Source: Thuidium tamariscinum | Lineage: Eukaryota > Streptophyta > Bryopsida > Hypnales > Thuidiaceae | DNA: 64,000 bases | NCBI GenBank assembly: GCA_947034885.2 | Contig: OX344752.2 | Coordinates: 24,141,386 to 24,205,385 of the forward strand | Reading direction: 5' to 3' | Shown here: piece after piece, positions 400 through 29,600 of the stretch | Layout of the letters: each line of letters starts with the position of its first letter | Numbering within the stretch: the first letter of the stretch is position 1 | Made by a program: the position numbers and the translations under genes | The notes under the pieces: model-generated | The model's database searches: none | What the model was told of the DNA's origin: nothing | Seen by the model: only the letters and a program-made list of their open reading frames with translations

Positions 400-3300
400 A
401 GTTATGTGAGTGATAATGAAAGTTCAAATGTAATGAATATTGAAGAGGTAAATATATAGAAATGGTAATGAAAATCTCTCATTTAATAAGTCAATGGGTG
501 AATGTTTGCGTGGGGAGTAATGAAATACTCCCTCCGTCCCAAAATTATCTTCTTGTTGGCCTTAATTTTTTGTCCCAAAATGATCTTCTTGTTGCCTTTT
601 GTGATATGAAAATTTGTCAAATTTGGATTTTAATTCTTGTCCAAGACTAGCAAAACAACTTTAAGCAATAATTTCCCTTCCATTCATAAAATCATCAATC
701 AAAGGACAAAAAAAATTACTAAAGGGGTTAATCAACACTTTTTGTTTGTATTTTTTGCATACCTTTGAGTGTTGCCTACTTAAAGGAGGTGAAGCTTTGG
801 TAGGTGGAAAAAAGGTTCACACATGGTCTTAGGCCCATATTAATCACCCACAAAATAACAACCTCAAATTCAAAATTTAAGTGCATACTGGTGCTTTTTG
901 AAAATGCCTCCAAAATTCTACTTTTCTATATTCTAAAATTACACTTTAGAAAATATTTTTAAAACTCAAAGTTTCAAAGATACTAAGAGTGAACCAAGCT
1001 TTGCTTACAAATCCGAAGGGGACTTTAAAATGTTATTTTTGGCCTTAATCTATAATATTTTGTTAAATAGGAAGATCATTTTGGGACAGAGGTAGTAATA
1101 TATATGGGAAGGTAATGAAATTGCCTAATTCATAAAGTGAGTAGATAAGTAGTTGCCTAGTTGCATGAGGGTAATGAAATAACAAATATGTGAGGATAAA
1201 CTAGTTTATGAAGTGAATGGATGAGTGGTTGCCTAGTTGCAGGGAATAATGAAAGTACAGATATAGTGGTAATGAAATAATAAATATCAGAGGGTAATGA
1301 AATTGATTAATTTATGAAGTGAGTTGATGAATGGTTGTTTGGTTGTATAGGGTTATGAAAATAGAAATATGAAGGTAATGAAATAACAGATTAGAAAAGG
1401 TAATGGAATTGACTAATTTATGAAGCGAATAAATGAGTGCTAATTAAACTGTGTGAGATTATAAAAATACAAATATGGGGGTAATGAAATGATAGATTAA
1501 GAAGGGAAATAAAATTGACTAATTTATGAAGTGAGTGGATGTGTAGTTGTCCGGTTGTCTAGTTGTGTGGGGTTATGAAATTATAGATATGAGTGTAATG
1601 AAATAGCAGATTAGAAAGGGTAATGAAATTCATTAATCTATGAAGTGAGTGGAGTTATGACATTATAGATACTTATGTAATAAAGTAATAGATTAGGAAG
1701 CATAATGGAATGGACTAATTTATTAAGAAAGGGGATGAGTAGTTGTCTCATTATTTACAGTTATAAAATTACAAATATGAGGGTAATGAAATAGTTGATT
1801 AGGAAGGATTATGAAATTGACTAATTTATGAAGTGAGTAGATAAGTGGTTGTCTGATTGTGTAGCCTTAATTATGAAAATATAGATATGAAGGTAATGAA
1901 ATAAGAGATTAGGAAGGGTAATGGAATTGCTTAATTCATGAAGTGAGTGAATAAGTGGTTCTCTAATTGTGTGAAGTTATGAAATTACAGATACGCAAAT
2001 AATGAAATAATAGATTGGGAAGGGTAATGGAATTGACTAATTTATGAAGTGAATGGATGAGTGGTTGTCTAGTTGTGTAGGATTATGCAATCACAGATAT
2101 GAGTGTAATGAAATAGTAGATTAGGAAGGGTAATGAAATTCATTAAGTTATGAAGTGAGTGGATGAGAGGTTGTCCAATTGAGTGGAGTTATAAAATTAC
2201 AGATACACAAATAATGAAATAGCAAATTAGGAAGGGTAATGAAATTGACTTATTTATGAATTGAGTGGATGAGTGGTTGTCTAGCTGTGTGAGTGGATGA
2301 GTGGTCGTCTGGTTGTGCAAGTAGATGAGTGGTTGTTCGGTTGAGTGGAGTTATGAAATTACATGCACGCATGTAATGAAATAGCAAATTAAAAAAGATA
2401 ATGAAATTGACTTATTTATGATGTGAGTGGATGAATGGTTGTCTAATTGTATAGGGTTATGAAAATACAAATATGAAGGTAATGAAATAATACATTAGAA
2501 AGGATAATGGAATTGACTAATTTATCAAGTGAGTGGATGAATGTTCGTCTGGTTGTATAGGGTTATGAAAATACAAATATGAAGGTAATGAAATATAAGA
2601 TTAGAAAGGGTAATGGAGTTGACTAATTTATGAATTGAGTGGATGAGTGTTTATCTGGTTGCGTGGCGTTGTGAAAATAGAGATATAGGGATAGTAAAAT
2701 AATAGATTAGGAAGGGTAATGGAATTACTTAATTCATGAAGTGAGTGGGTAAGTGGTTGTTTGGTTGTATAAAGTTATGAAATTACAAATACACAATTAA
2801 TGAAATATCAAATTAGAAAGAGTAATGGAATTGATTAATTTATTAAGCAAGTGAATGAGTGGTTGTCTAGCTGAATAGGGTTATGAAAATACAAATATGA
2901 GGGTAATGAAATATTAGATTGGGAAAGGTACTGAAATTGATTAATTTATGAAGCAAGTGGATATGTGGTTGTTTGGTTGCGTGGCATTGTGAAAATGCAA
3001 ATATGGGGATAATGAAATAACATATTAGTAAGGGTAATGGAATTGACTAATTTATGAAGTGAGTGGATGAATGGTCATATGGTTGCAAGGCGTTGTAAAA
3101 ATAAATATATGGGAGTAATGAAATAATATATTAGTAAGGGTAATGGAATTGACTAATTTATAAAGTAAGTGGATGAATGGTCATCTGGTTGCAAGGCGTT
3201 GTGAAAATACAGATATGGAGGTAATGAAATAATAGATTAGGAAGGGTAATGGAATTCACTAATTTATGAAGTAAGTGGATGAGTGGTCATTTGGTTGAGT

Positions 3301-5180
3301 GGTGTTATGAAATTACAAATATGCAGGTAATGAAATAGCAAATTAGAAAGGGTAATGAAATTGACTAATTTATGAAGTGAGTGGATGAGTGTCCGTTTAG
3401 TTGTATGGGGTTATAAAAATATAGATGTGGAGGTAATAAAATAACACATTAGGAAGGGTAATGAAATTGACTAATTTATGAAGTGAGTTGATGAGTAGTC
3501 ATTTCGTTGAGTGTAGTTATGAAATTATAGATACACGGGTAATGAAATAATAGATTAGCAAGGGTAATGAAAGTAATTCTTTTATGAAGTGAGTAGATGA
3601 GTGGTCGTCCTGTTGAAAGGAATTATGAAATTACAGGTACGCAAGTAATGTAATTGCAAATTAGGAAGGGTAATGAAATTAATTAATCTATGAAGTGAGT
3701 GGATGAGTGGTTGCCTAATTGTATGGGAGTAATGAAAATACATACATGGGGGTAATGAAATAAGAGATTAGGAAGGGTGATGAAATTGATTAATTTATTA
3801 AGTAAGTGAATGGATGAGTGGTTGTCTAGTTGAGTTGAGTTACAAAAGTTTAGATATGGAGGTAATGAAATAATAGATTATGAAGGGTAATGAAATTAAC
3901 TAATTTATTAAGTAAGGGGATGAGTGATTGTTTGGTTGTATGAGGTTATAAAAGTGCAAATATGAGGGTAATGAAATAACAAATTAGAAAGGGTGATGAA
4001 ATTGGTCATTTGGGTGTGTGGGGTTATGAAAATACAAATAGGGAGGGTATTGAAAGAACAGATTAGGAAGGGTGATGGAATTGACTAATTTATGAAGTGA
4101 GTGGATGAGTACTCGTCTAGTTGTATGGGGTTATAGAAGTATAGATATGGAAGTAACAAAATAACATGTTAAGGAGGGTAATGAAATTGACTAATTTATG
4201 AAGTGAGCAGATGAGCGTTTATCACATTCAGTAGAATTATGAAAGTACAAACGTAGAGGTAATGAAATAACAGATTAGGAAGGGTAATGAAATTGACTAA
4301 TTTATTGAGTAAGTAGATGAGTGGTTGTCTAATTGTGTGGAGTTATGAAATTACACATATGAAGACAATGAAATAATAGATTAAGAAGAATAATGGAATT
4401 GACTAATTTATGAAGTGAGTGGATGAGTGCTTGTCTGGTTGTGTGGGGTTATAGAAGTACATATATGGGAGTAATGAAATAACAGATTAAGGAGGGTAAT
4501 GAAATTGACTAATTTATTAAATGAATGAGTGGTCATTTGGTTGTGTGGGGTTATGATTATACAAATTTGAGGGTAATGAAATAACAAATTAGGAAGGATA
4601 ATGAAAGTACCCGTAAAAGTAATTAATTTTTGAAGTGAGTGGATGAGTGGTTGTCCGGTTGAGTGGAGTTATGATATTATAGATACACACGTAATGAAAT
4701 AGCAAATTAGGAAGGGTAATGAAATTACTTAACTTATGAAGTGAGTGAATGAGTGGTTGTCCAGTTGAGTGGTGTTATGAAATTTTAGATACGTGGGTAA
4801 TGAAATAATAGATTAGGAAGTGTAATAGAATTGACTAATTTATTAAAAAAGGAAATGAGTGGTTGTCTGGTTGTGTAGGATTATGGAATTATAGATATGA
4901 AGGTAATGAAATAATAGATCAAGAAGGGTAACGGAATTAATTAATTTATCAAGTGAGTGGATGAATGGTCATCTAGTTGTATGGAGTAATGAAATTATAG
5001 ATATGGAGGTAATGAAATAACATATTAGGAAGGGTAATGTAATTGACTAATTTATGAAGTAAGTGGATGAATGTTTGTTCTATTGTGTGGCGTTATGATA
5101 ATACAAATATGAGGGTAGCAAAATAATAGATTAGGAAGGGTAATGGAATCAGTGACTAATTTATGAAGCGAGTGGATACG
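400..5180. repeat. Left minisatellite array, unit about 107 bp
   Basis: Imperfect tandem repeats whose units carry in order GGTAATGAAAT, a TAGATTAGGAAGGG-like block, GACTAATTTATGAAGTGAG, TGGATGAGTGGTTGTC and a GGGGTTATGAAA-like block. Neighbouring copies near 3016 and 3124 give a period of about 107-108 bases. From about 1100 to 5180 this is close to 38 units. Similarity starts before the Stowaway element at 528-1095, so that element sits inside the array. The same unit occurs in reverse orientation at 18880-20465. Units are diverged (point changes and small gaps) and have no consistent reading frame. Confidence 0.9.
528..1095. mobile_element. Stowaway-type MITE (Tc1/mariner), copy 1
   Basis: The left end reads CTCCCTCCGTCCCAAAAT, the known Stowaway terminus. 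The right end is its imperfect reverse complement (TTTTGGGACAGAGGTAG). TA dinucleotides flank both ends, as expected for Tc1/mariner target duplication. It is 568 bp with no transposase frame, so non-autonomous. It interrupts the 107-bp array and is therefore younger than that part of the array. Two relatives lie at 59177-59821 and about 35425-36050. Confidence 0.85.
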
Positions 5181-7655
5181 TGGTTAAAAAATTATCATTT
5201 TAGAGGGAAAAAAGAGAATGTAAGATTGGTAAGGTAAAATTTCTCTCTGGTTTGTACTACAAATATAGGAAGGGTTATGAAATTGACATTATTATTATAT
5301 GAGTAAAGAAGTAGTTTCATATGTGATAGTGAAAGTACAAATATGAGGATAATGAAAGAATAGAATTGGGAGGGGGTAATGAAAATGATTCATTTATTAA
5401 GGGAGTGGGTGATGGTTGCTTGGTTGTAGGGGGGATAATGAAAGAGTAGATATGGTGGTAATGAAATTTGGAGTAATAGATTTGGAGAGATAATGAAAAT
5501 GATTTATTTATTACGTGAGTAGGTGAAGATTGTTTGGTTGTAGGTGGAATAATGAAAGTGTAGATATGGTGGTAATGAAATATGGAGTAATAGATTTGGA
5601 GAGATAATGAAAATGATTCATTTATTATGTCAGTGGGATCGGGAGTGGGATATGGTTGTTTGGTTGTGTGGAAGATCATGAAAGTGTAGATTTGGTAGTA
5701 ATGAAATATGGAGTAATAGATTTGAAGAGCTGATGAAAATGACTCATTTAATTTGTGAGTTGGTGACTGAGTGAGTGGGTGAGTGATTGCTTGGTTGTAC
5801 TAGGGGGAATGAATGCACAAAGTGTAGTAGTAATGAAAAAATTGGTGTGGATGGGTAATGAAAATGACACTTTTATTAACCCCTAAAGGTTTTTGACTAT
5901 GTTTCCACCAAAATCACTACAAAACTGCGATTTCTAGTGCAAGTGCAATTTTTTTGATAAAAAACATTTTTTGACGTATTTAACCATAGGATCTTGTAGT
6001 TAGGTGGTTTGTAAAGATGTGTAAAATTTTTGAAACTTTCACCGTGTAGATTGCAAGATAGTAACATTTGAACTAGCAAAAATTCTTTTTTTATTCATGC
6101 AAAAATTCGGGCAGCTGCACTTCACAAGGTCACATTTGTATGAAAAAAATACTCAAAATGATGGTTACTCTTTGAATTAATTTTACAATTTGAGTTGGCT
6201 ATACGGTGAAAAAATTCAAATCATTTGGAATTGTGCAACATATAGGAAAAAAATAGTATATAAGTAGAAAGAAGTAAAAAATGCTTGAAAATACTAAATT
6301 GTGAACAATTTATTTTTAAGAATGAAAAATAACAATCCCAATGGATAAAATATTTTAATAAATAATCTTCACCCAATGTTTTTTTAATAAAAATATAAAA
6401 AATCGTATTAAATAAAGAATTTCAAACTTTTTGTAGAGTAGATATTCTATAACTACCCCCAAACTCCCCCCAAACTGAGATTCCTTATAACTTGTCACTC
6501 ATTTATCAAAATGGAATGATTCAAAGCTTTCCACATAGATAAAAATCTAATAAACCTATTTCAAACTTAAAAAAATAATTTTTAAAGAAGTTTTTTTTAT
6601 TGCCTAGGCTGCCCACAATTCAAAGGAAATAACATATAATGCCATAACTTTTAAACTGTGTAGTCAAAAGTTAAAAAAAAATTGGGCCTTGAAGCTACTC
6701 CTGGAACACATGTTATGTAAAAATTTCAAAGAAAAATAAATAAAAACTCCATTTGTAGAGAGCTGCCCAAAATTTCTATGTTGCCAAAAATGCAATTTAG
6801 GGCTTTAGGGGTTAAGTGAGTAGGTGAGTGTCTTCTTGGTTGTATGTGTGGTAATGAAAGTCAAGATGTGGACAAAATTAAAATAACTCACTTATTAATT
6901 GAATGGGACAATGGTTGCTTGGTTGTGTAGGCATGATGAAAATATTGCTACTGAGGTCATGAAAATAACAAATGTAGGGGAATGCAAATGACTTAGTTAT
7001 CAAGTAAGTGGATGAGTGGTTGCTCAATTGTATGTGGGGAATGAAAATACAAATATGAGGAGGTAATGAAAATGGATCACTTTTTAAGTGAGTGGGTGAT
7101 AAGATGAGTGGTTGTTTGAATTCATGGGGATAATGAAAGTATAAATATGGGACTAATGGAAATACAATTGTAGGGAGTATTGAAAATTACTTACTTATTA
7201 GGTGTGATTAGGTGAATGGTTGTTTAGTTAAGCAAAGATAATGAAAATGTTGATATGAGAGGATTGGAAATATAAATATAAGGGTCTGTTGAAAACAACT
7301 TATTTATTAAATGAGTAGATAAGTGTGTGTATAGGTGGAATGAGTGATTGATTCAATGGTGGATTATTGTCCTTTCAAAAGTGAAACTAACTGTGACAAA
7401 TCATTATGATATTAGTCTCATTGCATAAAATTGATTTATATCTTGAAATCTCATATTAAACTATTAAATCATGCCAAATACTAAATGTACTTTCACCATT
7501 GAAAAATAGAAAGTATGATTTTTTAATCTATCCTAATATTTTTCTACCTCTTTTAAAATTTTAGAATTGATTTTTTTATTCTTGTGAGTTCAAGTGAGTC
7601 TTCATAAACCATTAAGGTACTCATAATTTAATAAACATTGAAGAATTGGCATGTG
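5180..7655. repeat. Left flank of the inverted duplication around the SUVH gene
   Basis: Outside the regular array this block keeps degenerate pieces of the unit (5330-5870 and 6815-7370), then a non-tandem tail to about 7655. Its reverse complement matches 16955-18880 piece by piece, for example the stretch around 7375-7640 against 16955-17245. Without the inserted MITE at 5880-6811 it is about 1.55 kb, nearly the length of the right flank without its own insertion. Open frames here, including a 120-residue one on the minus strand at 5317-5679, follow the repeat period and are not taken as genes. Confidence 0.8.
5880..6811. mobile_element. TTAA-specific MITE, long form (932 bp)
   Basis: Termini are CCCCTAAAG and CTTTAGGGG, perfect 9-bp inverted repeats, each bordered outside by TTAA. 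The inverted duplicate near 18180-18195 has the same flanking sequence with one TTAA and no insert, so TTAA is the duplicated target. No transposase frame is visible. An element of similar length at 56998-57870, in the opposite orientation, shares internal sequence such as an ACCATAGGATCTT block. TTAA duplication with CCC...GGG ends is the piggyBac signature, but assignment to that superfamily is an inference because no transposase is present. Confidence 0.85.
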
Positions 7656-8401
7656 GAGATTATTGTTTAGACTATCATAAATATCAATTTCTATACTAAT
7701 CATTACCAAGATCTAAGCATTATTTTGTATTAAATTCTTTTTTTTCAAATTAAATTTTGAAATCTTTAATATCATTGTTCATGATAGATATTTATGTATC
7801 AAATAAATTACAGTTTTCTATTTGATTTGCTTATCTTATCAATCTACATTTTAAATGAATTGTACTACTTTGGAGATTTCTTTGGATTTTAAAGTTAATT
7901 TTTTATATTTTACACAAATTTTCAATTTTACGGTTGATATCATTAATTGAAAAGAGGCTTATTTTATGAATAATTTGACTTAATAATTTCAATTTTGAAA
8001 AATAAATATAAAATTTTACATTCATATCAAGTTGCAAAATAATATCAAACAATGTAAGGTAATTAGAACTAATTTTGTGTGCTTTCTAAAATTGATCACT
8101 TCAAATTCTTTGCCTCTCATTTTGCCTAAAATATACTCCTACTATTCATAAGAGTCTACAATCAATTTAATAAATATCAATTTTTTAACACTTTGAAAAT
8201 TCATAATTTATGTATATAGTGTCTATAGATGCATTCTTAGAAAATTTAGAATCTCCTTTTGACTAGCAACAATGTCCATTTATTTTTATCAATATGAAAA
8301 TGGAAACCATGCCAAATGGCTTATTTGAGTGACTATAGGTGTAGTTACCTCATTACAAGTTACGACTTGAAATTAGTAGTCACTCGCCCCTCATTTAATG
8401 G
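7656..8401. other. AT-rich intergenic DNA
   Basis: Low-complexity AT-rich sequence between the inverted duplication and the next MITE. No coding region or clear repeat was recognised. Confidence 0.5.
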
Positions 8402-8405
8402 TTAA

Positions 8406-8835
8406 CCCTCAAGCCCTTTGACGTTAATATCTTAGACAATGAACAAAAGGTTTTGAAGCACTATTCAATTCAACTAACTTCTCATTCATCCAATGTAATA
8501 TTTGAATCTAAAAAAGACAACCTTCCATAATAACTGAATTCATGAAATCTTAGTAATACTTTTGTACAAAGTTGTAAATAAGAATGTGCAAAATTCAATA
8601 AAAGTTTGAGGTGTTCGAAGATTAATTCATAAATGCTGTTGCGACTATTTTACGGTTGATGAAAGAAATTGAATCCTTGTATGTATGAAAGAAGTTCAAC
8701 TACTCACCCTTGAAATTTTGCAGAAAAAGGGAGGTCTCATACAATAACTTGACTTCCAATGAACGCATTTGGACTTATTTACACCTACTCTTCACAAAAT
8801 GCCAAAAGGAATGATACCAGCCCGTGCTTTAAGGG
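8406..8835. mobile_element. TTAA-flanked MITE, short form (430 bp)
   Basis: Starts CCCTCAAGCCC and ends in the imperfect reverse complement GCTTTAAGGG, with TTAA directly outside both ends. The interior (about 8455-8610, including AAAGACAACCTTCC) matches the smaller element at 50591-50813 in the same orientation, so the two are relatives of different length. No coding capacity was seen. It lies about 650 bases upstream of the SUVH start codon and could affect its promoter. Confidence 0.8.
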
Positions 8836-8839
8836 TTAA

Positions 8840-9487
8840 ATGCAATCCATAAGTTATTCCCCCCATTCCTCAAGATCATGCACATAGCGCTCCCTTCCAC
8901 GGAGTTCCTTCCACCAGATCATGCTTTCAGTCTGGGCCTACGAATGGTACTCTACTCTCCTACCCTAGGCCTGACTCGGATTCACACTGACGCACCAAGC
9001 ACGGGGCCCCACCCAGCCGTCAAGAGTCCCTCTCTGCCTCTCTCCCGCCAAATGAAAAGTCCCGCCCCCTCCAGCCGTTGCCCGCGCTTTTTGAATTCCA
9101 GCGCGGGCCGGGCTCCCCAGCCCTGCCCGACCCGTGGCTTCTGCCTGGCCCCGGTCCCGGTCCCGGTCCCGCCCCCGGAGCATCATATTCCCCCCCCTCT
9201 ACTCCCAGTTGTTCCAGTCCCTTCCACACTGAATGTGGATGTGTGCCCGAATTATTCCACGCTGATTGTGTTTGAGTGTAGATTTTGAAGCTTGTGGATT
9301 CTGTTTGAGTGCTTCAAGTCTTCGAGTGGTTGAAGTCTTGGAGTGTCTTTAGAGTGCTTGGAGTGCTCGCTCGGTGTGTGTTTTCAAAGCCCGGTGGATG
9401 GTGTGATAGTATCGCTGAAGCTGTGGTGTTTAGGAGCTGACTTGAAGAATTCGCGTTTGATGTTCGGGTTCAGTTGTTGAGTTCACA
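8840..9487 (+). promoter_or_regulatory. GC-rich upstream region and leader of the SUVH gene
   Basis: Sharp change from AT-rich DNA to a GC- and CpG-rich stretch, strongest at about 9000-9190 with a short CCCGGT tandem repeat near 9152. The GC island, its position and the following long open exon suggest promoter plus 5' leader. No convincing TATA box was picked out and the transcription start cannot be fixed. Several overlapping open frames here are a by-product of GC richness. Confidence 0.55.
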
Positions 9488-12400
9488 ATGCCGAGCTCGC
9501 CGTATCCGTCGCGTACCAAGGGGGATGAAGAGAGCCGAGGTTGTGAGAACAATCAGGCGCGGAAAAGAAGTGTGCGATTCGAGGGAAGTGGCGGTGTCGT
9601 TGTTGAAGAAGATGTGAAGCCTACCGTGAATCTTGAGGACAGTGAAGAAGACTGCAAACCAGCGGGGAAGGTTCGACGCGCTCCTCTGCGAAGTTCGTCG
9701 CGCATTGCGACTCTTGCTTCTCGGGCGCCTGTGAAGCAGGAGGCTGCCGAGCAGTCCCCGAGCCCTCCGCGTGGTCGGAAGAAAGTGAAGGTGACGGTGA
9801 AAGAAACGAAGGTGACGAAGAAGGTGAAGACGGTGAAGGTTAAGAAAGAGGAGAAAAAGGAGTTAAAGAAGCAAGACGCATCTGTGAAGGTGGAGAGTGA
9901 TGGTGACCCTCAGAGTGGGGATGCAGATGATCTTGGCGAGGTTGCCGAAGAGATAGAGCGTGCCGGGACGGATCAGCTGGGACAGAAGCTGGCACAGCAA
10001 CTTGTTGACCGAGCTGATATGAGCGACGCTATGCAAGTCAAAGCAACCATTCGAATTTTTAACTTCCTGTACCTTGAAGCCATCCAGGTTTGTTTAATTC
10101 TGTCGGTCTATTTGCACTGAGAATTCACTTCAAGGTTCCCTCCTTAGCGGCCAGAAAATTTTGCATGTCGAGTTCATTTCACGTGAATTCAAGTGTTGAG
10201 GGGACACAAGATGAGGCCTCCGTCTGCCTGATTCAATGATCACTTCTCCAATTCAGTAGAGTGGACATCGTAGGTTCTTGGATATCGCCTGAGAATATTG
10301 CGGAGCTGTGCTGGAGAGGCAAGGACTAGATGCTGGTGATTTTAGTTAGCAGTTTAAGGTTTGGCATGTACTCCTATGATAATTATCTGCCTCAATACGT
10401 AAACCTGATGTGTAAGCTTTCTATATTCCTGCTTGCAGTTTGAAAATAAGCGTGCCTCAGAGCATTTGATTAAGATTGAAGAGGCTGGCACTGGTAAAAG
10501 ACCCTCCAAACGACCTGATTTGAAAGCAATTTCTAAGGTAATGTAGCAGGGGAAGCCTGTATGGTGAGGAAGTGTGACATTGACAACACTGAAGCCTTCT
10601 CCTTGTTCCTTTTTTCAGCTACATTTGGGAGATTAATGTAGTGACTCTAGATCCGTGTGCTGTGCAAGTGTCGAATAACAAAACACTCAAGGAGCTGATC
10701 GTGGGTCTTTGATGAGCAGATGTTGGAGTTTAGGGCCACTCTTAACCCTGAGAAACAAATCGGGAGTATTCCAGGTCACACCCTCTATCTGACCTTGACC
10801 TTCATTGCTTGGGATCTTTATAATGCACTCCCCTTTCGACCCTTGGTTCTTTGTGTCGTCTTCAATGCTTCTCACAAAATGATCTCATCTTTACTTCTTC
10901 ATTTTGTCTCCAGGTGTTGAGGTCGGTCAGCAGTTCCTTTCAAGAGCAGAGTTAGTTGTCATAGGTCTGCACAGTCATTGGCTCAATGGAATCGACTACA
11001 TTGGGGTTGGTAAAGGCAAGGTAAGGTTCCATTGCTTTCTGCGATTTACAATCCCTGTTCTCTGCTTCTACTGAGAACATTGCGTTAAAACCTGTGAAGA
11101 TGGTACTGTCAATGTCTCACGCATTCTGTTCGCAATCTCTCAACAATCAGGGTCCTGATAGTATTGCTAAATACATACGCTTTTCGGTCCACTGCATACT
11201 CTTGTTGATTAATTTGTTCCATGAAATAGGCAGCACCATTCTGCTAATGGATTGTGGTGGATTTTGGTTATGAATTTGACCTTCAATATGTTTATGGGAG
11301 GATCATCCCCTTTTAGTGGGGTGTAGCTAGGGGTATGGCTTTGTGTGGCAGTGTGTGCGTGCACAATGACCCGTGTCTTATCAGCTCTTTCTTAGTTTGG
11401 TCAGTAACGGCCTAGAAGTGGACTAGTTCTCCTTGACTGAATATTGTTGTGGTGGTGCCAGTCATCGGACTTGGAGTTTCCTATCTGTGTTTCCATTGTT
11501 ATGTCGGGAGGTTATGAAGATGACGTGGACAATTCAGAGGATGTGGTCTACACTGGGCAAGGAGGAAATGACCTTCTAAGCACAAAGAAGCAAATCAAAG
11601 ACCAAAAGATGGAAAAGGGAAATTTGGCATTGAAGGCATGTGTTTGCTAACCTACTTACCTAAAGTTCACCACATCTGAGAAAGAATGTGGAGTGAGTCA
11701 GATCTTAATCCTAGTTTGAATCTGCTGCCACCATGTGTCATTTTTTATCAAATAAACTTTTAGATAATTTTTCTAACGTTTGCCTGTTCCAAGCGACCTG
11801 ATTGTAGCCCAGGAAGATATGAGAATTCACCTAAATTTTGTGGTGAATTATCTAAAATCAGATTAGTCACTGTTATGATTTCACCACGGTAGTCTATTAG
11901 CGATATTGAACTTGATAGTTCTTAGAGCATTACTAGCGTTTGGTAGAAACTTCTATGTGTTTTTCCTCATTTACTTATCAGTGAAGTGCATGATATTGGT
12001 ATTACAGAATAGCATGAAATGTAAACAACCTATTCGTGTCATTCGGGGCCATGAAGACAAAAGGAGCTACAGTAAGAAGGTTTACACATACGATGGACTA
12101 TATGAGGTGAATCTTCTTCTCGTAGGCCAGCATCTGCGACGGCCTCATTGACTTTGGGATTTTCAGTAATAATCTTGTCGGTCAACTTATCTTCTATAGT
12201 AGATATAGAAGTGGCAGAACTCAAAGTATTCTGTCACTTAAGGGTTCTACTTCATGCATAGTCTTCGTTTTAGATACGGTTTTGACCATTCGCACTCCTT
12301 GCTGTTATTCCTTGATGTCGACTTCTGATTATCGCAATCAAAAGTATTTATTAATCGTCGCTTACAGTAATACAAGCGAATGACATGCAGGTTCACGACC

Positions 12401-14836
12401 ACTGGGCTGAGAAGGGAATTTCTGGTTTCACGGTATTCAAGTACAAGCTTCGGCGTTTGGCTGGGCAGCCAATTCTCACTACCGAGCAGGTGCACACTTC
12501 TGTTGCATTTATAATCTTGTCTAGGAAAGAGCACCTATCACTGGTGCTGGGGATGAGGCTAAATAGTAAATAATACTTCTTGATGATACTATCTGCCACT
12601 TTTTGATTTTATTGAAGATTATGAGCAATTGCTCGGACAAGTTAAGCCTTTGCGGTGGCACTCGTTTATGAGAAATAGTTCCAAGACATATGCAACGTTG
12701 TTAAGCTAGATTTCTCCGATCTACTCAAAGCTTGGGTGTTGCGGAAAAAAATGCAGGTTAAATTCTCGAGAGGGAAAGTTGCGCCAATCAACATTGCAGA
12801 CCTCCGGGGGTACTAATCACCAACTGCACTTCTATCTGCATGAAGTTCTTAAGTGCACTATGAAATGTCTTTTTGCATGTTCTCTATGAACCAGTGGTGA
12901 ATTGAATTCTCCGATTGTGTACAGATTGGTATATAATGATATCTCGAATGGGCAGGAGAGACTTCCAGTGCCTGCTTCCAACACTATTGACGATCCTCCG
13001 GTCCCTCCAACAGGTTTGTGCGCCACCATTCCAGTGGACTGGTTTTTATTCTTCCACGTACTATCTGTTCCGTAACTTATTTTTGAAGTTATTCAAGTTA
13101 AGGCTAACTTGTTTTTGATAGTATGTCATTCATCCTGCATCTTGTTATCCATGTCACACACTTCACAGACCTCACGACCTCTCTTTCTCGCTTTTGATTG
13201 AACACGCTACTCGCAGTTCCCTATGTGTTATTATTTATTTACTTGACATGGTTCTGTTTACTAGACTACACTTACATCTCGAAGACAATTACGCCTGCGA
13301 ATATACCAAAGCCGCCCCCGGCCAAGGGCTGCTCTTGCAAGGGACTGTGCACTGACGAGAAGACATGTGCTTGTGCTCGCAAGAACGGAGGATCCTTCCC
13401 CTATGTCCTAAACCATGGCGGAAGGTAATCCTTGTGGTTTCGGTGCATTTTTTCTTTCGGTATAAGGTTTCATACTGTTTTTTCTAGGAGAGCTATGCCC
13501 TAGCTGTGACTTTGCTACACTTATGCCTTAGCATTTAAGATAAAACCGAATGTTAAGAACCTCCACTGTTGCATTTAAAGGTTTACTCATTTCTCTGGTT
13601 ATGAAGAACGAAATTTTTTTCTGACTTTTGTGTAGCAGACCTTTTGATGGTGCAGATGTGCCATTGAGCTTTATTTTCCGAAGTGGCTTCGGTCCTATCT
13701 AATCAGTTCCTTGTAAATGGTTGCGTGTAGATCGGTGCACTTCTTTGATGTTGGTTGCTACCAACATTGACCTTTGTTTTCTGCAGTTTTCATCTAGAAC
13801 TGCGAATGGTTGTGATGTGCAGGCTTGTGCAACCGATGGATGTTGTTTACGAGTGTGGGCCAGGATGTGGCTGTGGCCCCGAATGCTTGAACCGAACATC
13901 TCAAAAGGGTCTCCAATTTAGGCTCGAGGTATGGGTTTGCTTCTAGCAACGCCTCATGTTTCAGAGCCCCATTGTTTTTGCATGTATTGTATTCTTGGTA
14001 ATATAAATATTCACTAGGTTGACGTTCTGCATGGATGCCGCTGACTTTCTGAAGTGGAGCATACAATGGGTTTGAATTGTGCAGGTATACAAAACCGTCT
14101 CGAAGGGGTGGGCTTGCCGGTCATGGGACTTTATTCCAGCGGGATCTCCTATTTGCGAGTACTTCGGTGTGTTGAGAAAGAACGACGAGAATTTGGAAAG
14201 CATGGTGGATAACGGCTACATATTTGAACTTGATATGTACCAAACTATGCAAGGCATGGAAGGGCGCCAGGTAATAAATCTGTATTCCATCGATGCACCA
14301 GATCCTGTTTTCTTAAGCGAATGCGAATTCCTTCATGTCATGCAGTTTTCTAAGTCTTTCCTTTCATGTCTTAAAGTTCCCATCCCTTGTGATTGCATTG
14401 CAGAAGCGATTTGGTGATGTAACTCCTGAAATCAACACTGAGGACGAACTGATCCAAGATGTCGCATTCGTCCTTGATGCTGGGAAGAATGGAAGCGTTT
14501 CGAGATTTCTCAATCATAGCTGTGAACCTAACGTGTTCATTCAGTGTGTAATGAGTCACCATAGTGATCATTTCATGCCCCGGATTGTGATGTTCGCAGC
14601 CGACAATATCCATCCATTAGAGGTGCGCTAAAATCTCCTACTCGCTTCTCTTCTGCGTTTACTCTACGTTCGACTTACCTTAATGACATCTGTTCTCATG
14701 GATTATGTCATGTGAATGGCAGGAGTTGTGCTATGACTACGGTTATGCTATGGACAGCGTGTTGAATGCGGACGGTACAGTCAAGCCGATGGCTTGCCAC
14801 TGCGGAGCCCCATCTTGTCGGAAACGAATGTATTAG
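9488..14836 (+). CDS. SUVH: SUVH-type histone H3K9 methyltransferase (SRA + pre-SET + SET + post-SET), 14 exons
   Basis: Spliced exons: 9488-10087, 10439-10537, 10720-10774, 10914-11020, 11462-11635, 12008-12106, 12391-12489, 12757-12809, 12925-13013, 13265-13424, 13823-13928, 14085-14270, 14404-14622, 14723-14836; 2,160 nt, 719 residues, every junction in frame. The N-terminus (about 1-200) is Lys/Glu-rich and basic. The SRA/YDG domain (about 245-410) has GYEDD, TGQGG and YTYDGLYE. The pre-SET region carries exactly nine Cys (481, 483, 487, 493, 495, 523, 527, 529, 533). The SET domain has GWACRSW, RFLNHSCEPN (643-652) and ELCYDYG (683-689). Post-SET is CxCxxxxC (707-714). By family knowledge the SRA domain binds methylated cytosine and SET methylates H3K9 in nuclear heterochromatin. 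All catalytic motifs are present, so it should be active. Intron 5 has a GC donor. Start: first ATG of the long exon, with no rival upstream in frame. Which SUVH subgroup is not settled. Confidence 0.95.
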
Positions 14837-15340
14837 ATGCGATCTGTATATATAATCTACTAGTGTTTTAAGAAGGCTTGCTGGAGCACCTACCAGCCTA
14901 ATCAGCGACACAGGTTTTGCACTTCCACTGCAATTTTTTTGGTGGCTGTTCCACTGGAAACTCAATTCTTTTGTTAATTTTGATGAACCCTCTTAGTTTT
15001 AGTCTTTTTTTAGTTTATCCGTGTCCTTTATTTTATTTGCTCAGACAATTGTCAAATGTACAAAATGAATGCAAAATGCTGAACCCTGTTCAATAAAAGA
15101 TTGGTACACGTTTCCTGGCATGAAGTTGGTGCTGCCTTCTGAAGGTGGTCTTAAGGTTCAAAGCTTTTTTATATGGAAGAATAGATGCTGAACTGCTGAT
15201 CGTTATGATTCCTCTCATCTCGGGGATGCCACTAAAGCGATAAACGTCACTAACGGTCATACACGTACACCCCGCGTACAAAACATGAATCTATGAGCAA
15301 GTTAATCTTCATTTATATAATGTTGGATATGAATTTTTTT
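14837..15340 (+). other. SUVH 3' flank
   Basis: Moderate-GC sequence after the stop codon, with no coding region recognised. It probably holds the 3' untranslated region, ending near the AATAAA at 15092. Confidence 0.5.
15092..15097 (+). terminator. Possible polyadenylation signal of the SUVH gene
   Basis: AATAAA about 256 bases downstream of the stop codon, preceded by T-rich sequence. This is a reasonable distance for a plant 3' untranslated region. Plant signals are loose, so this is only a candidate. Confidence 0.35.
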
Positions 15341-15465
15341 TGGAACAACTGGGCAGGGCCCATTGCATTAAGAACTGAAGAATAAACATCCAGGCCAAGC
15401 GGCCGGAAACAGAACCAAAGCGCGAAGTCGGCGACTGCTCGGGACAGAGCGCCTTTTAAAAAAAA
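15333..15465 (-). mobile_element. Possible 3' tail of a LINE or SINE
   Basis: Read on the minus strand, a GC-richer stretch leads into TTAATGCAATGGGCCCTGCC and ends in an A-run. A hairpin-like GGGC...GCCC followed by poly(A) resembles the 3' ends of plant L1-type LINEs and derived SINEs. It is only about 130 bases, with no reverse transcriptase sequence and no target duplication I could define. It could instead be an unrelated GC-rich fragment. Confidence 0.35.
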
Positions 15466-15684
15466 AAATTTGAACAAGAGAGACGAGCCCTTGGATACGA
15501 ATCTTCAGTTGAAACTATGTCAATATACTACTCTGGCTCGTAGCACGTTAAAGCTCTATTTAATGGCGAACCTTCCAGAAAAGAACCCTGAAATAAAGAG
15601 CCCATTGTCTTTATCTTTCGCTCAAAGAAAAATCTGCCATTGATTCTTTGTTTCTGCAGGTAACTTGCAAGATTTTAGAACGCT

Positions 15685-16920
15685 TTGAGCCTTCCACAGA
15701 AGCATTACATGTCTGTTTATTTTTATTTGTCTAAAGCATGTTTGCAATCTGAAATGGACATGTTAAAAATAATTGTGTATGAAGGGCTTGTCCAAGTTGG
15801 CGTCACTGGTCTCCTCCATCTTATGGAATGTTTAACACATTTCAAAATTTGTTGCAAGAGGGTTATATATATGTTGAACATGTGCATGTAAGATTTCACT
15901 TACAATTAGCAACATATGCTTCAACAGTAGTTTGCTTGGTGGAAGCGTAGAAATGTGTGCATTATGGGAGGAGGTCCAGAAACCGACCATCTAAGGGCTG
16001 GAACAGAATTTTGGGCAGGTCAAACATCTTGAAATATTTTTCAGAAAATTTTCCTTGAAAGAGAGCTTAAATAGGCATCTAACCCAAGTTGTTTCATATT
16101 TTTTGGAGCTCTCTAGAATTAGTTATCAAATTCTGAAGTTGAAAGGGCATAGGGCTCTAAAATGGTGCCCTAGCTAAAATGTACACTGTCAGTACACTGC
16201 TGAAGGCTATGAAAATGCAACATGTACAAGTACTGTACATTTAAGAGAGGGCACCATTTTAGAACCCACTCCATTCAAGAGCCTCCTCCTATAGTCTCTT
16301 GAATAGTGGTTGTGCTTGTCAACATCATTGGTGACTACAAATCAATAGGAAACAAGAGCTTTAAAAGTAGGACATTTCAAGAGCAATAGTTGTGTCTTAT
16401 ACTCTTGTGCATTTGCCTCAGTATAATAAAAGAAAATGAAAATAAATTTTTTGATTTTCTAATTAGAAAAATGGTAGAAAATGGGAGGGTTCCTTTCTAT
16501 AGAGAAGTTATGGTATTTGATTAGAAGTGTAATCATACTAATATGATAAGAATTGGAATTGATATGAATTTTCATATCAAATATAGAAAATTGTTAGTAG
16601 GTGGGGGTCATTGTAAAGAGGTTCCAAATTAGTGATCCATTACTTTAATCTTGTTTGATAAATCTTTTGAAGTACAAGTTAAACATTCTAAAAGTACCTT
16701 TTCTATTTGTATAGATGATTAATTGTCATGTGAAGTATAAAATTCCAAGGAAGTCCATCTAACCATCCATCATGAAACTAAATGATTATCAACCTTCAAT
16801 TGTTTATTATTAAATGTAAATTTGAAGTAATTTTCTAACATGAGCACTTCTTATTTGCTTGAAGGATATGGCTTACAAATTTTGTAGAAATGCATAATGG
16901 ATTGACAATGATAGGAGGGG
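15685..16920. repeat. Direct repeat X, copy 1
   Basis: Matches 20470-22060 in the same orientation over separate blocks: around 15700-15890 (shared AAAATTTGTTGCAAGAGGGT) and around 16380-16740 (shared CAAATATAGAAAATTGTTAG and CTTTAATCTTGTTTGAT). Roughly three quarters of bases agree by eye, with several length differences. The two copies bracket the right minisatellite block. No open frame is conserved between them and no terminal motif marks them as a known element. Confidence 0.7.
16152..16267. mobile_element. Small hairpin MITE (116 bp)
   Basis: Left end GGGCTCTAAAATGGTGCCCT; the right end is its reverse complement with one mismatch over 20 bases. Inner sequence also pairs partly (AAATGTACA against TGTACATTT), giving a near-complete hairpin. 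No target duplication is convincing, so the superfamily is open. It lies inside direct repeat copy 1, and I did not find it in copy 2. Confidence 0.7.
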
Positions 16921-16954
16921 GGGCTTGTTGATGAAATTCATTCTTTTGTTAATT

Positions 16955-18880
16955 TTGCCAATTCTTCAATGTTTATCAAATTTATAAGTATCTTAATGGT
17001 TTGTAAAGACTCACTTAAATATCAACAAGAATAAAAAATCAACTCAAAATTTTTAAAAGAAGTAGAAAAGTATTTGAATAGATTAAAAAAATCATACTTT
17101 CTATTTTTCAATGGTAAAAGTACATTTAGCAATTGATGACATGATTTAATACTTTAATATAAGATTTCAAAGTGTAAATCAATTTTAGGAAGTGAAACTT
17201 ATATCATAATGATTTATCATGATTACTTTTACTTTTAAAAGGACAATAATCTACCAGCCAATCAATCCCTCATTCCAACTATATACACTTACCTATTCAT
17301 TTAATAAGTGAGTCATTTTTCAACACCCCCTCATATTTCTATTTTCAATCTTCCCATATCGATATTTTCATTATCTCTACTTAACCCATAAAGGATTGTA
17401 GTTGATTTGGAGGGTGGGCAAAACATTTTTTGACACCAAGCTAAATATGAAAAAAAACACAAATTGTGATGCATTTCAAAGATCTAACTATATTGATGAA
17501 ATTGGCATGAATATTTGTGCCTCTTCAATAACTTTTTTGGCAATTGAAAGTTCTCTTGTTAGAATTTTTTTGTATTTTTAGTCCATTTTTTGATAGTTTT
17601 TTCAACCCCTCAACCACATACTAGCACAAATTGCTATAATTCTTGTCCCAATGCATTCAATTGCCAATTCTCCACACTTATCTTCATTTGTCCATATCCA
17701 AATTCATTCTAAAACTTTTCCTACCAACAAAAAAGTGTCAATATCAATCCAAAGGTAGTCAATTGATTTTTAATAGGTTAACTAAGCAATCATTCATCCA
17801 ATTACTTAATAAGTGAATCATTTTCAATACCTCCTATAATTGTATTTCCATGAGTCCCATATTTATACTTTCGTTATCTCCATACACCCAAACAAATACT
17901 CATCTAGTCAGCCATTGACTTCATAAAAGATCCATTTTCATTACTTCCTCATATTTGTATTTTCATTCCCCACACACAATTAAGCAACCACTCACCCACT
18001 TATTTGATAATTGAATCATTTGCATTCCCCTACATTTGTTATTTTTATGACCTCCATAGTAATATTTTTGTCATGCCCACACAACCAAGCAACCATTGTC
18101 CCATTCAGTTAATAAGTGAGTCATTTTCATTCCCTCCTTATCTTGACTTTCATTACTACACACACAACCAAGAGAACACTCACCTACTCACTTAATAAAA
18201 AAATGATTTTCATTACCCTTCTACACCAATTTTTTCATTGCTCTTATAGTTTGTGCATTCATTGCCATCAATACAACCAAGCAACCACTCATCCACTCAC
18301 TCAGCCACCCACTCACTCAGTCACCTCACGTATTAAATGAGTCATTTTCATCATCTCTCCAAATCTACACTTTCATTATTCTCCACACAACCAAGCAACC
18401 ATCACCCACTCACGTAATAAATGAGTCATTTTCATTATCTTTCCAAATCTATTACTTCATATTTCATTACCACCATATCTACACTTTCATTATCCTCTAT
18501 ACAACCAAACCATCGTCACCTACTCATGTAATAAATGAGTCATTTCCATTATCTCTCCAAATCTATTACTTTGTATTTCATTACCACCATATCTACACTT
18601 TCATTATCCCCCTATAACCAAACCATCACCCACCCACTTAATAAATGAATCATTTTCATTACCCCCATATCTATACTTTCACTACCACCTATGCAATTAC
18701 TTATTTACTCACATACTAAGTGACTCAATTTCATTACTCTTCCCATATTTGTAGCACAATGTAGGGAGAAATATTAGCTTAACAAGCTAAAATCCTACAT
18801 TTTCTAGAACAAACTAGTTGTTTGGAATACATTCTTTTTTTTTCCTTCTAAAATGATCACTACCAAACAACAACTCATCC
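16955..18880. repeat. Right flank of the inverted duplication around the SUVH gene
   Basis: Reverse complement of the left flank (5180-7655). It contains the non-tandem tail (16955-17245), degenerate units (17280-18700) and the junction segment with CCTTCTAAAATGATCA near 18842, matched by TGATAATTTT-like sequence near 5200 on the left. Without the insertion at 17385-17777 its length is close to that of the left flank without its insertion, so the two came from one block before either insertion. Confidence 0.8.
17385..17777. mobile_element. TTAA-flanked insertion (393 bp)
   Basis: Starts CCCATAAAGG and ends TAATAGG, bordered on both sides by TTAA. The inverted duplicate at about 7228-7240 has the same surrounding sequence with one TTAA and no insert (TTTGCTTAACTAAACAACC), so the insertion point and the TTAA duplication are directly visible. 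Terminal inverted repeats are weak. The interior does not clearly match the other TTAA elements, so it may be a diverged or separate family. No coding region. Confidence 0.75.
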
Positions 18881-20465
18881 ACTCACTTCATAAATTAGTT
18901 AATTTCATTATCTTTCCTAATATCTTATTTCATGACCCCCATATCTGTACTTTCATAACACTATTCAATTAGACAACCACTCATCCAATCACTTCATAAA
19001 TTAATTAATTTCATTGTCTTTTCTAATTTGTTATTTCATTACCCCCATATATGTACTTCTATAACCCCACACAACCAGACAAGCACTCATCCAATCACTT
19101 CATAAATTAGTCAGTTTCATTACCCTCCTTAACCTGTTATTTCGTTACCCCCATATATGTACTTCTATAACCCCACACAACCAGACAAGCACTCATCCAC
19201 TCACTTCATAAATTAGTCAGTTTCATTACCTTCCTTAACCTGTTATTTCATTACCCCCATATATATACTTCTATAACCCCACACAACCAGACAAGCATTC
19301 ATCCACTCACTTCATAAATTAGTCAGTTTCATTACCTTCCTTAACTTGTTATTTTGTTACCCCCATCATATGTACTTCTATAACCCCACACAACCAGACA
19401 AGCACTCATCTACTCACTTCATAAATTAGTCAGTTTCATTACCTTCTTTAACCTGTTATTTTGTTACCCCCATCATATGTACTTCTATAACCCCACACAA
19501 CCAGACAAGCACTCATCCACTCATTTCATAAATTAGTCAGTTTCATTACCCTCCTTAACATGTTATTTCATTACCCCCATATATGTACTTCTATAACCCC
19601 ACACAACCAGACAAGCACTCGTCCACTCACTTCATGAATCAGTCAATTTTATTACTCTTCTTAATCTGTTATTTCATTACCTCTACGTTTGTACTTTCAT
19701 AATTCTACTTAATGTAATAAACGCTCATCTTCTCACTTCATAAATTAATCAATTTCATTACCTTCCTTAACCTATTATTTTGTTACCTCCATATATCTAC
19801 TTCTATAACCCCACACAACTAAACGAGCACTCATCCACTCACTTCATAAATTAGTCAATTCCATCACCAATCCTAATTTGTTCTTTCAATACCCCCCCTA
19901 TTTGTATTTTCACAACCCCACACAACCAAATGACCAATTTCATTACCCTTTCTAATTTGTTATTTCATAACCCTCATATTTGCACTTTTATAACCTCACA
20001 CAACCAAAAAATCAATCATCCCCTTACTTAATAGATTAGTTAATTTCATTATCCTTCATAATCTATTATTTCATTACCTCCATATCTAAACTTTCGTAAC
20101 TCCACTCAACTAGACAACCACTCATCCATTCACTTACTTAATAAATTAATCAATTTCATCACCCTTCCTTATCTCTTATTTCATTACCCCCATATATGTA
20201 TTTTCATTACTCCCACACGATTAGGCATCACTCATCCACTCATTTCATAGATTAGTCAATTTTATTACCCTCCCACATATGTTATTTCATTACCTCTATA
20301 TCTATGCTTTCATTATTCCTTACAACTAGGCAACCACTCATCCATTCACTTCATAAATTAGTTAGTTTTTTTACCTTCACATATTTGTTATTTCATTTCC
20401 CCCATGCAACTAGGCAACCACTCATCTACTCACTTATGAATTAGTCAATTTCATTACCCTTCCAT
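18880..20465. repeat. Right minisatellite array, unit about 107 bp, inverted relative to the left array
   Basis: Tandem units in reverse orientation: ACTCATCCACTCACTTCATA, AATTAGTCA, TTTCATTACC, a CCTTAACCTGTTATTTCATT-like block and ACCCCACACAACCAGACAAG. Adjacent copies near 19141 and 19247 show a period of about 107 bases, so about 15 copies. Units at 19020-19620 resemble each other more than most left-array units do, which suggests recent local expansion here. Confidence 0.9.
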
Positions 20466-20469
20466 TTAT

Positions 20470-22060
20470 TGCATGCCTATTTATTTTTATTTTTGTAAAG
20501 TACATTTGAAATCTGAAATAAGTAAGTAGATTGTGTGCAATGGGCTTGTCCATGTTTGTGTCATTTATCTCTTCCATCTTATGAAATCTTTAACACATAA
20601 CAAAATTTGTTGCAAGAGGGTTTTATACATTTTGAACATGAGCTTGTTTAGTAGGAGCATATGGTTCAACAAGGATTCACTTAGTGGAAGGATAGAAGTG
20701 CTTGCATGAGTTTCTTGAACAATTAATGTGCTTGTCATCATTGTTGGAGGAGGGGTTGTTGCAAGAAACACCATCCATTTTTTGTAACGTTTTGGAAATG
20801 GACACTGTTTTCTTTAGGAGTACTATTTAATTAGAAAATAAATTAAAAAAAATATGAAAAATATTTCTAATGTATAAACCTTAAAGAAAAAGGTATCCTA
20901 TGAAAGAAAAGCTTAAGAAAATTCTCCAAGTAGGAGAACTAGAAAAGCGGAAAATCTCATGAAAATGGGCATATTTACATTTTAATTTGTAAAAAATAGG
21001 AAAATTTATTTTTATTGAATCTAAAAATTTTCCATTTGGGAAGAGTTGATGGTGATGACATTTCACCAAAAAAATAATCTTAGCTCTATTATCAATGGTT
21101 AGAAATTGCGTGTAATGGGAGTGTTGTTTGCACACATGTGGAGGACATAAAATAATGTATTTTTAGATTTCTTTTGATATGAATATGATTTCCTACTATG
21201 CAAATGCACCATGAAAATTTCAACTTTAAATCATTAAATTTGGGTACTCCTAACGTAGTAAAACCCCCTAAACCTCAATTTGTGACAAATTAACAAAAAA
21301 TACTTTTAAGTATAAAATGATTTTTTTAATTTCTAAAAAATAAGGGATTTAAAAATCATCAAGTTAGAGAGGTCCAATAATTATTTCATATTCTCAAATA
21401 TTTTAATTCAAAAGTTATAGCAGAAAAGAACAACTTCACTCCAATTGTGACGAGAAATAGAACCGGTGTTTCTTGCAATCACCTGGCTACAAATCAACAA
21501 AAAAAAAGGGAAAACTTCAAGAAATGGTTGTGTTTTGTGCCATTGCCTTAGTATGAAATGAAAATGAAAATGGAATTGTCTAATTTTTAATTGAAAAAAT
21601 TATAGAAAGTATTAGCACTCTTCTCCATATAGACTAGAGAGGTCATGGTATTTGATTAGAAGGGGAATCATAGTAATATGATAAAAATTGGAATAGATAT
21701 GAAATTTCAAATCAAATATAGAAAATTGTTAGGGGGGGTCATTTTAAAGAGGTTCCACATAAGTGACCTACTACTTTAATCTTGTTTGATGAATCTCTTA
21801 AAGTAGAAGTTGAACGTTTTGAAAGTACCTTTTCTATTGGTAGAGATGACTCTTCATTGTGGCAAGTTTATTAATTGCAAGTAAGTCTTTCTAACCAACA
21901 ATTATGTAACCATAAGGTTATCAATCTTCAATTGTTAATTAATAAATGTACGTTTGAAATAATTTTCTAACATTAGCACTTGATTACTTGCCTGAAGTAT
22001 ATGACTTACAAACATTGTGGAATAGGATAATATATTGATGGAGATGGAGAGGGCTTGTTG
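20470..22060. repeat. Direct repeat X, copy 2
   Basis: Same-orientation counterpart of 15685-16920, adjoining the outer end of the right array. Shared blocks lie at about 20470-20720 and 21510-21990. The middle (about 20760-21500) differs from copy 1. No gene was recognised in it. Confidence 0.7.
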
Positions 22061-26625: not shown

Positions 26626-29600
26626 CTACACTTGCCACAAATTTATTAGAGACCTTGCTGATCCCTTTCGTGCACGCCTATGTTTCCTTTGCCTTACGCG
26701 CCAAAGACCAAAGATGAGCACAAACCCTGCAATGGCAAAAGGAACATTACATTAGAACCAGTAAGACTAACATAGTTTTAAACCAGTCAGCAAGCAGTTC
26801 AAAAGCGTGCTCCGACTTGAAATACAAACTCGGTTCCTCTCAGAAACACACTATTGGTGTTTACTGCTAGCACGTGTAAAAACGCTTCTAAGCGTGACAC
26901 TGAATACTGAAGTGGACAATCTGAGTATGACCTCAGCTGGACGTGCACCTCGAAACAGTGGAGAACGAGAGCAGTTCAATCACCGCAGCTGCCAGATCAT
27001 GATGCTGTTGTACTAAACATTTCAAAACAGAATTGATAAGCAGTCATACCTGTTATACATAGAAGAATTGGGGCCAGCCATTGAACAGCTGTTTGAGTCG
27101 TGATATCCAGCTGCACACAAACAATAACTTCAATCAACTCCTTGAACACCGGACTAGCTCGACAGGAAGTAAAGGCTGGATCTCATTAGTGAACATTATG
27201 CCCAGGTATATAACTAGCAGTCCGTAAGTTACAGAATGACATTTTTTGGGCGCTATAAAAACAGAGGGTCTAGGACAAAAGAGGATTGAGGATGAAGATC
27301 TGAAGCTCGTTATCCAGACCACGGGAATGCAACTATGCACAGGGCAAGATCACATAATATGTCAAAGGAAGGAGACGAGAAGGTACTGACCTCATCTCGG
27401 GTCCACCATCCGAGCGGCAACTGAGAATTATTCTTGACTCTACCATTTGTAGTGTCAACAGTCCTTACCTCAAGGACTGCTTCATTTGGTACCAATAAAG
27501 CCTGTGATGGAAATACGAACTCTGAAATACTATCTGTCTCACTATCTGACCTAGAATTTGACACATTAGAAGACGTATCTGGCCTAATTGAATCAGCTGT
27601 AGAATTTCCTTTCAGCTGAAATACACTATCCAACGAAGTATTCTTGGATATGCCAGAGTGCACATGGCCCCCAATGATAGGATTTGGTTGCAATATGTTT
27701 CTATGTCCATTTGTACTAGTACTGTACTCCGAAATGTAGCCTTTAGAACCCTGCACTGCAACTGGAGAATCTAAGCCGCATCTTAGAGGATGTTGCAAAA
27801 CGAGAGAATACGCACTAAAATTAACGTCATCCCGCCGTAGAGGTAAGGGTGAGTCCACACTGCCAAGGGGAGAGCCCACCAACTCATTTGTTGCAGGGAA
27901 AATGACAGGATCTTCAATATTAGAACTTGTAAAATCTAGTAGCTTCTTCAGCAACCAGTAGCAGTTGCTCACCATGTGGCTGCTGTCCAAACAATTGGAG
28001 TCTCCATAGACAGCAATGCGTCCTTTTCCTGCCTCTACTGCTCCCAAAATAGGAGACTCTACCTGATTTCATCATTTGCATATTCTTCATCAGAACAAGC
28101 GAGTAGAGAAGGACAGAAAGGAAGAGAGCAGGAATGAGTTCATTTGGCAAAACATGCAGACAAAGAACTTAGGTTGCATATTTTTACACCTCAACGATAA
28201 AACAAAAATGAAAGAAAACACTTCACAAGGAAGACGAAAAGAAGCATAAAATACAATTTCAATTTCACGCAACTTCCAGTCGGGTCGGTGCATACCGGAA
28301 ATTTTTGGATTGAGGGGATATGTTCTTAAGAAACTACGAAACAAAGCGAACACCCCAATTATTGCCGCAGACTATTGCTTTCCAGAAAACAAGATACACA
28401 ATCATCATGGCAAAATTCACAGAATAAGATGAATTATGAAGGGAAGGACCTGAGCTCGCACAGAACTGCGTGATGAAATAATGCCAGAGTGACCTCCCGA
28501 GCTATCCTGGAAAAGAAAGCGGTGTACAAAGCCTCCAATCGGGAAACGTAGGAGGTCAGTGCCTGAGGCATAATGTGCTCTTTCGCCTCCAAGAGAAAAA
28601 GCACCATTAAGTATTGTGTCCCCAAATGCAATACCAAAGGGAGCAAGCAAGTCATTCAGAGCTGGAATATTAGCACCACCAGTAGCAGGAGTCCACCAAC
28701 TCCGAGTATTATCATCAAAGAACTTCATTTTCACCATAGTCTCGACATGATACCAATCCGCAAAAACAATCAGTCCAAGACCTTTCGTTTCAACGTCCTC
28801 TTGCAACTTCTTGATTTCCTCCTTGTAGTATTCATCTTCCAAGTCCACCATGAGCAGTGTACCATACTGAGTGGCATCAAAGCATGTTAATGGGGAACCA
28901 AGGGTTTCAACATAGTAACCAGCGTCGCGAAGGACATCAAACATCCCATGAAAATTGGTATGCAAATGGTCCCCATGCCAATCCAATATATCGTTCCTTA
29001 CATCTAAAGAGTCACGAGGAATATAACCAGGTGGATACCGTACACTGTGAAACTGATCCCACAAGATCCGCTTCTCCCGAGGAGGTGTAGGAATCACTGC
29101 TAACTTCAGTGGCAACTCACAATCCCATCTACGTGGACTACTCTCCCCCTTTGCAGGAGGAGAAACTACCCTAAACGTGATTTTGCCTTCTAGCGTTCCC
29201 TGATACCTGTTCCCTTCGGGTTTAATCCTAAGGTATAATCCCAGAAACCCTGTCCATGGCCAGATCACATCAGAATATGTGTATCGTATGTCCAGTAATC
29301 TGCCTGATTCTCCGGAAGGCACCCATTTGGGTGCATTGTCTATGTAACCCACGACGCCCATTCCGTTCAGTATCGTTGCATTAAAAATGACAGGCATAGC
29401 CCCAGCATAGAGAGGCTGCCGCCAAAAAGGCCATGCATAAGGACTATCAGTCAGATCTAAGGTACTGGGCATGATGCTCACACGGGGTTGGTAGGTTGCC
29501 AATATTTCATACGATTTTAACCTGAAATAAATCATGAAAAGATGTCAAACTAAAGCTTCTATGCAAGTCCATAAATATAGAGTCAATCACAATGTATGCG

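Follow-up and report, generated by a model that had tools for sequence, protein, structure and literature searches.

TTAA-flanked miniature elements of probable piggyBac type in an inverted duplication of the moss Thuidium tamariscinum

Widely used as a genome tool, piggyBac has been documented best in animals. The closest described members of its superfamily, represented by the structures 6x67 and piggyBat 9c0f, combine a DDE_Tnp_1_7 transposase with three aligned aspartates, TTAA targets and ends starting with CCC, and the same combination is found in the genome of the moss Thuidium tamariscinum. The subject here is a stretch of 64,000 nucleotides from contig OX344752.2 of this moss (the window), in which an inverted duplication around a SUVH-type gene carries one short insert in each arm: an element of 932 bp (M932) on the left and another of 393 bp (M393) on the right. 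Both are very probably non-autonomous cut-and-paste transposons directed to TTAA, M932 being a miniature of a piggyBac lineage of the same genome (the group of loci L048/L063/L061). Elements of this kind are already known, and the mechanism is ordinary; the host, which is poorly described, the scale and the signs of recent movement are unusual. At least 116 piggyBac transposase matches were scored in this single plant genome, the 29 best domains divide into 14 groups, and the ends of one miniature family number in the thousands. M932 and the L063/L048 group offer a natural miniature together with its likely transposase lineage.

Published papers name piggyBac in plants (PMC8086355; PMC10813416), treat it as a plant superfamily (PMC10794571), report it in all groups studied (PMC4438587) and label 1,230 fern repeats as piggyBac (PMC6890710), while plant piggyBac is described elsewhere as occasional and plant studies as limited (PMC12732532). 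No moss piggyBac report was found among the papers listed, which is weak evidence of absence since most subscription journals lay outside the search. A paper on the moss Niphotrichum was discarded as such a report; the term occurs in it twice, one occurrence being the word ‘piggybacking’. The moss elements differ from described piggyBacs in length, the two that were followed to both ends measuring about 5.1 kb against 2.1-3.5 kb for intact beetle elements (PMC12732532), in a long frame upstream of the domain, and in their plant host.

piggyBac-type elements are also counted among seven superfamilies of miniature inverted-repeat transposable elements (MITEs) in angiosperms (PMC10004981). Like these, both inserts are short, lack a long open reading frame (ORF), have terminal inverted repeats (TIRs) and a TTAA duplication, and occur in many copies. 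M932 is long by usual MITE size. Unlike typical piggyBac-type MITEs, it keeps 200-450 bp that resemble the end of a transposase element, and its genome also contains transposase elements whose ends are related.

Two inserts and their empty sites

The earlier note on this DNA had described the blocks around the SUVH gene as inverted copies, and the comparison bears this out. With both inserts and one TTAA each taken out before alignment, the arms are 86.0% identical over 1459 aligned columns, and their unique part at 280 of 322 positions (87.0%). Identity in the 150 bp flanking the junctions is 85% on one side and 87% on the other for M932, and 81% and 83% for M393. The window reads TTAA-CCCCTAAAGG from 5876 and CTTTAGGGG-TTAA up to 6815 at the first insert, and TTAA-CCCATAAAGG from 17381 and TTAATAGG-TTAA up to 17781 at the second. 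Each arm without the insert has a single TTAA at the exact place, and in the insert-free alignment the gap edges fall at TTAA. The inserts and empty sites had thus been recognized correctly; the positions given for the latter, near 18184 and 7234, were 6-8 bases off (Table 1). The direct alignment of whole blocks that the note had suggested (5180-7655 against the reverse complement of 16955-18880, with MAFFT) places the left edge of M932 and the outer edge of M393 at TTAA, but misaligns the region between the two inserts because each block carries its own.

The 932-bp element and its probable transposase lineage

The TIRs of M932 begin with CCC(C/T). Its terminus joined to TTAA, TTAACCCCTAAAG, has 12,133 exact occurrences in the genome (6104 + 6029), against 4 + 4 for the reversed control; this end may be common to other families, so the corresponding figure of about 6000 element equivalents gives an order of magnitude only. 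The 20-mer of the left end has 1171 exact genome copies, 1039 of them (89%) directly preceded by TTAA, a word with a frequency of 0.9% in the flanking DNA. A search with M932 yielded 9534 candidates, of which 40 were scored; apart from M932 itself and one 32-bp fragment, these matches are 84-88% identical. Thirty copies, chosen as the best-scoring and including that of the window, were fetched and their TTAAs read from alignment columns. An unaltered TTAA flanks 22 of them on each side, 28 have at most one changed base per side, and within the element the copies diverge by 4.6-7.4% from their consensus (window copy, 6.8%). Copies with different target duplications had been named as one observation that would count against the TTAA rule; the dispersed copies instead repeat it. 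One locus with two M932-type ends 5 kb apart (C1:42206-47240) was considered as a possible autonomous parent and rejected, being a copy of M932 type (75% match) interrupted by about 4.2 kb, with a longest stop-free frame of 126 codons.

The suggested search for a piggyBac transposase was positive. The PF13843 (DDE_Tnp_1_7) profile gave 659 candidates, and all 116 that were scored pass the cut-off, compared with 0 of 14 control genomes. Among 30 domains, 29 were compared (L068 was left out). The three catalytic columns are aspartate in every one of them; clustering at 80% protein identity gives 14 groups, and stop codons in 8 of the 29 show that many copies have decayed. The longest mechanical frames of L054 (983 codons) and L048 (756 codons), which are not gene models, have only two matches in the PDB at E ≤0.001, namely piggyBat 9c0f and 6x67 (L054 against 9c0f, E 2.9e-27; L048 against 6x67, E 8.8e-33). 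The latter entry is listed as ‘Transposase’ and is presumably the T. ni piggyBac; the three aspartates align to its positions 268, 346 and 447, which we take to be the catalytic ones.

Two of these transposase elements have ends related to M932. L048 spans 5135 bp between its TTAAs, with the ends TTAA-CCCCTAAATGCCC and CTTAGGGG-TTAA; at one end two GGGGTTAA lie 12 bp apart, and the inner one was chosen. Within the 3' terminal 200 bp of L048, the segment 32-191 aligns to 31-191 of the left end of M932, with a score of 52 against 11.3 ± 1.8 for shuffled sequence (z 23, reached by 0 of 300 shuffles). L063 (L063/L076) has the downstream end TTAACCCCTAAAGG, which is the M932 terminus and thus the same TIR, and its collinearity with M932 extends over the first 450 bp of the latter (z 12.8, 0 of 200 shuffles). 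Both loci encode the PF13843 domain, and their proteins are 55% identical. A third locus, L061, belongs to the protein group of L048 (50%) and reaches z 4.9 against the M932 left end. Judged from sequence, by the shared TIR and the collinear ends, M932 most likely arose as a miniature within the L048/L063 lineage, and the piggyBac assignment in the earlier note is well supported for this element. The lineage transposase would bind the shared CCCCTAAAG ends and the subterminal sequence of M932, cut the element out and insert it at TTAA, doubling the four bases. M393 may have been moved in the same way by a sister piggyBac lineage.

Several observations weigh against this reading. The right end of M932 is collinear with the 5' end of L048 but only weakly so (z 2.8, reached by 4 of 300 shuffles), and no homology between the two was seen inward of the terminal ~200 bp. 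The match with L063 is known for the left M932 end and the downstream L063 end only. Other transposase groups also rise above shuffles, L067 at the left end (z 3.6) and L064 and L066 at the right (up to z 3.0). The 30 M932 copies are best scorers and no random sample. Finally, among 30 loci, each with at most one end in view, none proved to be a transposase element that has M393-type ends.

The match of L052 to M932 was rejected as homology, this piggyBac having inserted into an M932-type copy (~75% match) exactly at its TTAA (L052:1-220). L049 likewise adjoins another TTAACCCC end, and old TTAA duplications seem to be reused as new targets at both loci.

L052 and ten further loci form an 11-copy autonomous family (L050-L060, on contigs C1, C2, C5, C8 and C9). 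Its copies are 99.9-100% identical over 3984 bp, while other scored matches reach only 67-71% (40 of 92 candidates scored). TTAA stands at the fetched end of all 11. Two copies followed end to end are identical, with 5096 bp, both TTAAs and the ends CCCCTAAACGCC and CCCTGAAACGCC; the full length rests on these two, the other nine being known from one end. Copies that are practically identical, set against matches of 67-71%, point to a recent burst, and the family is possibly still active. As partner of M932 it was rejected, its ends matching M932 at shuffle level (z -1.0 to 1.0). Tentatively, and with slightly more doubt than confidence, the genome can be read as having a presently mobile native piggyBac system, made up of this autonomous family (at least 11 copies), many further lineages and TTAA-specific miniatures of four sizes (932, 583, 393 and 152 bp), the largest of them in thousands. 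If so, it would provide an active native land-plant piggyBac and a plant-derived transposase. The near-identity of the copies puts a direct test of recent activity within reach.

The 393-bp element and competing explanations

The family of M393 has CCC...GGG inverted repeats at its ends (CCCATTAAGGACC), which are degenerate in the window copy (CCCAT / CCTAT). Of 275 candidate copies 40 were scored, and these are 78-88% identical, self excepted. By eye, TTAA lies on both sides in 5 of 7 other fetched copies; the exceptions are L005, whose left side is TCAA, and L006, whose right end is beyond the fetched part. The CCCATTAAGGACC end occurs 371 times in the genome (reversed control, 1), in 340 cases preceded by TTAA. 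Among the first 100 listed of these 340, facing pairs span 582-584 bp in 16 cases and 150-152 bp in 11. Two 583-bp copies (L077, L080) agree at 561 of 583 positions, and two short copies (L078, L079) at 136 of 152; a 152-bp copy folds into a long hairpin (z -14, DNA parameters). At least two further miniature families of uniform size thus have the same ends. When 38 miniature copies, 8 of them M393, were compared by BLAST with the 30 transposase loci, many of these without ends in view, only L048 and L052 were matched, by M932 copies alone. With no transposase found that has M393 ends, the earlier piggyBac call is likely for M393, short of demonstrated.

The earlier note had taken the empty sites as proof of insertion. 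The TTAA pattern itself stands; the proof does not, since piggyBac excision is seamless and a single TTAA therefore fits an arm that was never entered as well as one from which the element has left. Precise TTAA excision by piggyBac is described (PMC8086355). At least one empty site could accordingly be an excision scar, the element having been present before the duplication or in both arms and then lost from one, which is unlikely on balance but the strongest of the alternatives. Ages leave the two cases unseparated. The arms differ by 14%, half their Jukes-Cantor distance being 0.077 (0.071 in the unique part), and the window copy of M932 lies 0.068 from its consensus (Jukes-Cantor 0.071). 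M393 lies 0.123 from a consensus built on seven relatives, and 0.15-0.19 from these taken singly, which makes it if anything older than the duplication. Both comparisons may mislead: gene conversion between the arms would lower the apparent age of the duplication, and the M393 consensus probably mixes subfamilies, which inflates the age of M393. Insertion into one arm after the duplication is simpler, as one event suffices, and each empty arm would then never have carried the insert, but M393 may have been excised from the left arm.

Assignment to a different superfamily that also duplicates TTAA, such as Kolobok, is very improbable. TTAA duplication occurs in Kolobok too and so is not unique to piggyBac, and M393 has had no transposase partner so far. 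Against this, M932 has its TIR and 450 bp of terminal sequence in common with an element encoding DDE_Tnp_1_7, and the autonomous piggyBacs of the same genome likewise have ends that start with CCC and lie at TTAA. Both the kind of transposase and the agreement of the ends favour piggyBac, and for M932 the latter speaks strongly against Kolobok, although no search was aimed at a Kolobok transposase.

That the empty sites are an artefact of satellite aligned in the wrong register is hardly credible. Self-comparison shows a repeat of ~106 bp in both arms, which makes a wrong register a real risk (the whole-block alignment did go astray in the middle), and the register was therefore checked with joined flanks: those of M932 (200 bp) fit the claimed empty site over 200 of 200 bp at 85.5% and 209 bits, against 64 bits for the next-best place in the window (own parts excluded), those of M393 fit 7166-7368 at 80% and 145 bits against 55 bits, and the same TTAA recurs at dispersed copies, so that this explanation was rejected.

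Setting of the locus

The assembly comprises 363 Mb in 19 contigs, ten of them of 24-54 Mb. The window lies on C4, and C19 was taken for the plastid (psaA and psaB present). PsaB has its best PDB matches in 7ksq, 6l35 and 8htu, structures of photosystem I of Physcomitrium patens, in keeping with a moss host. SAD_SRA, Pre-SET and SET exons in the gene enclosed by the arms confirm the SUVH label given to it earlier.

Table 1. Positions of the inserts, their sites and the surrounding features in the window
Feature	Position	Strand	Remarks
M932, non-autonomous piggyBac-type element, 932 bp	5880..6811	+	Ends CCCCTAAAG...CTTTAGGGG; no ORF ≥150 aa
M932 left TTAA target duplication	5876..5879		
M932 right TTAA target duplication	6812..6815		
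Site without M932, right block	18192..18195		Single TTAA
M393, non-autonomous element, 393 bp	17385..17777	+	Ends CCCATAAAGG...TTAATAGG; degenerate member of the CCCATTAAGGACC-ended family
M393 left TTAA target duplication	17381..17384		
M393 right TTAA target duplication	17778..17781		
Site without M393, left block	7228..7231		Single TTAA
Left arm of inverted duplication	5180..7655	+	Satellite-like repeat, then unique part ~7330-7655
Right arm of inverted duplication	16955..18880	-	
SUVH-type gene exons between the arms	11879..14628	+	SAD_SRA 11879-12148; Pre-SET 13198-13425; SET 14317-14628

Satellite-like arrays with a spacing of ~106 bp, inverted relative to each other, flank the SUVH gene at ~1100-5185 and 18867-20470. 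At 28417-29535 the window contains a frame matching the third and fourth domains of MBTPS1 (site-1 protease). A second, large inverted repeat occupies 37905-42065 and 51955-55790. Its arms, 40357-42065 and 51955-53663, complement each other at all of 1709 nt across a spacer of 9889 nt, and the outer pieces (37905-38690 and 38897-39200, with their partners) reach 98%; this repeat was read as a young palindrome.

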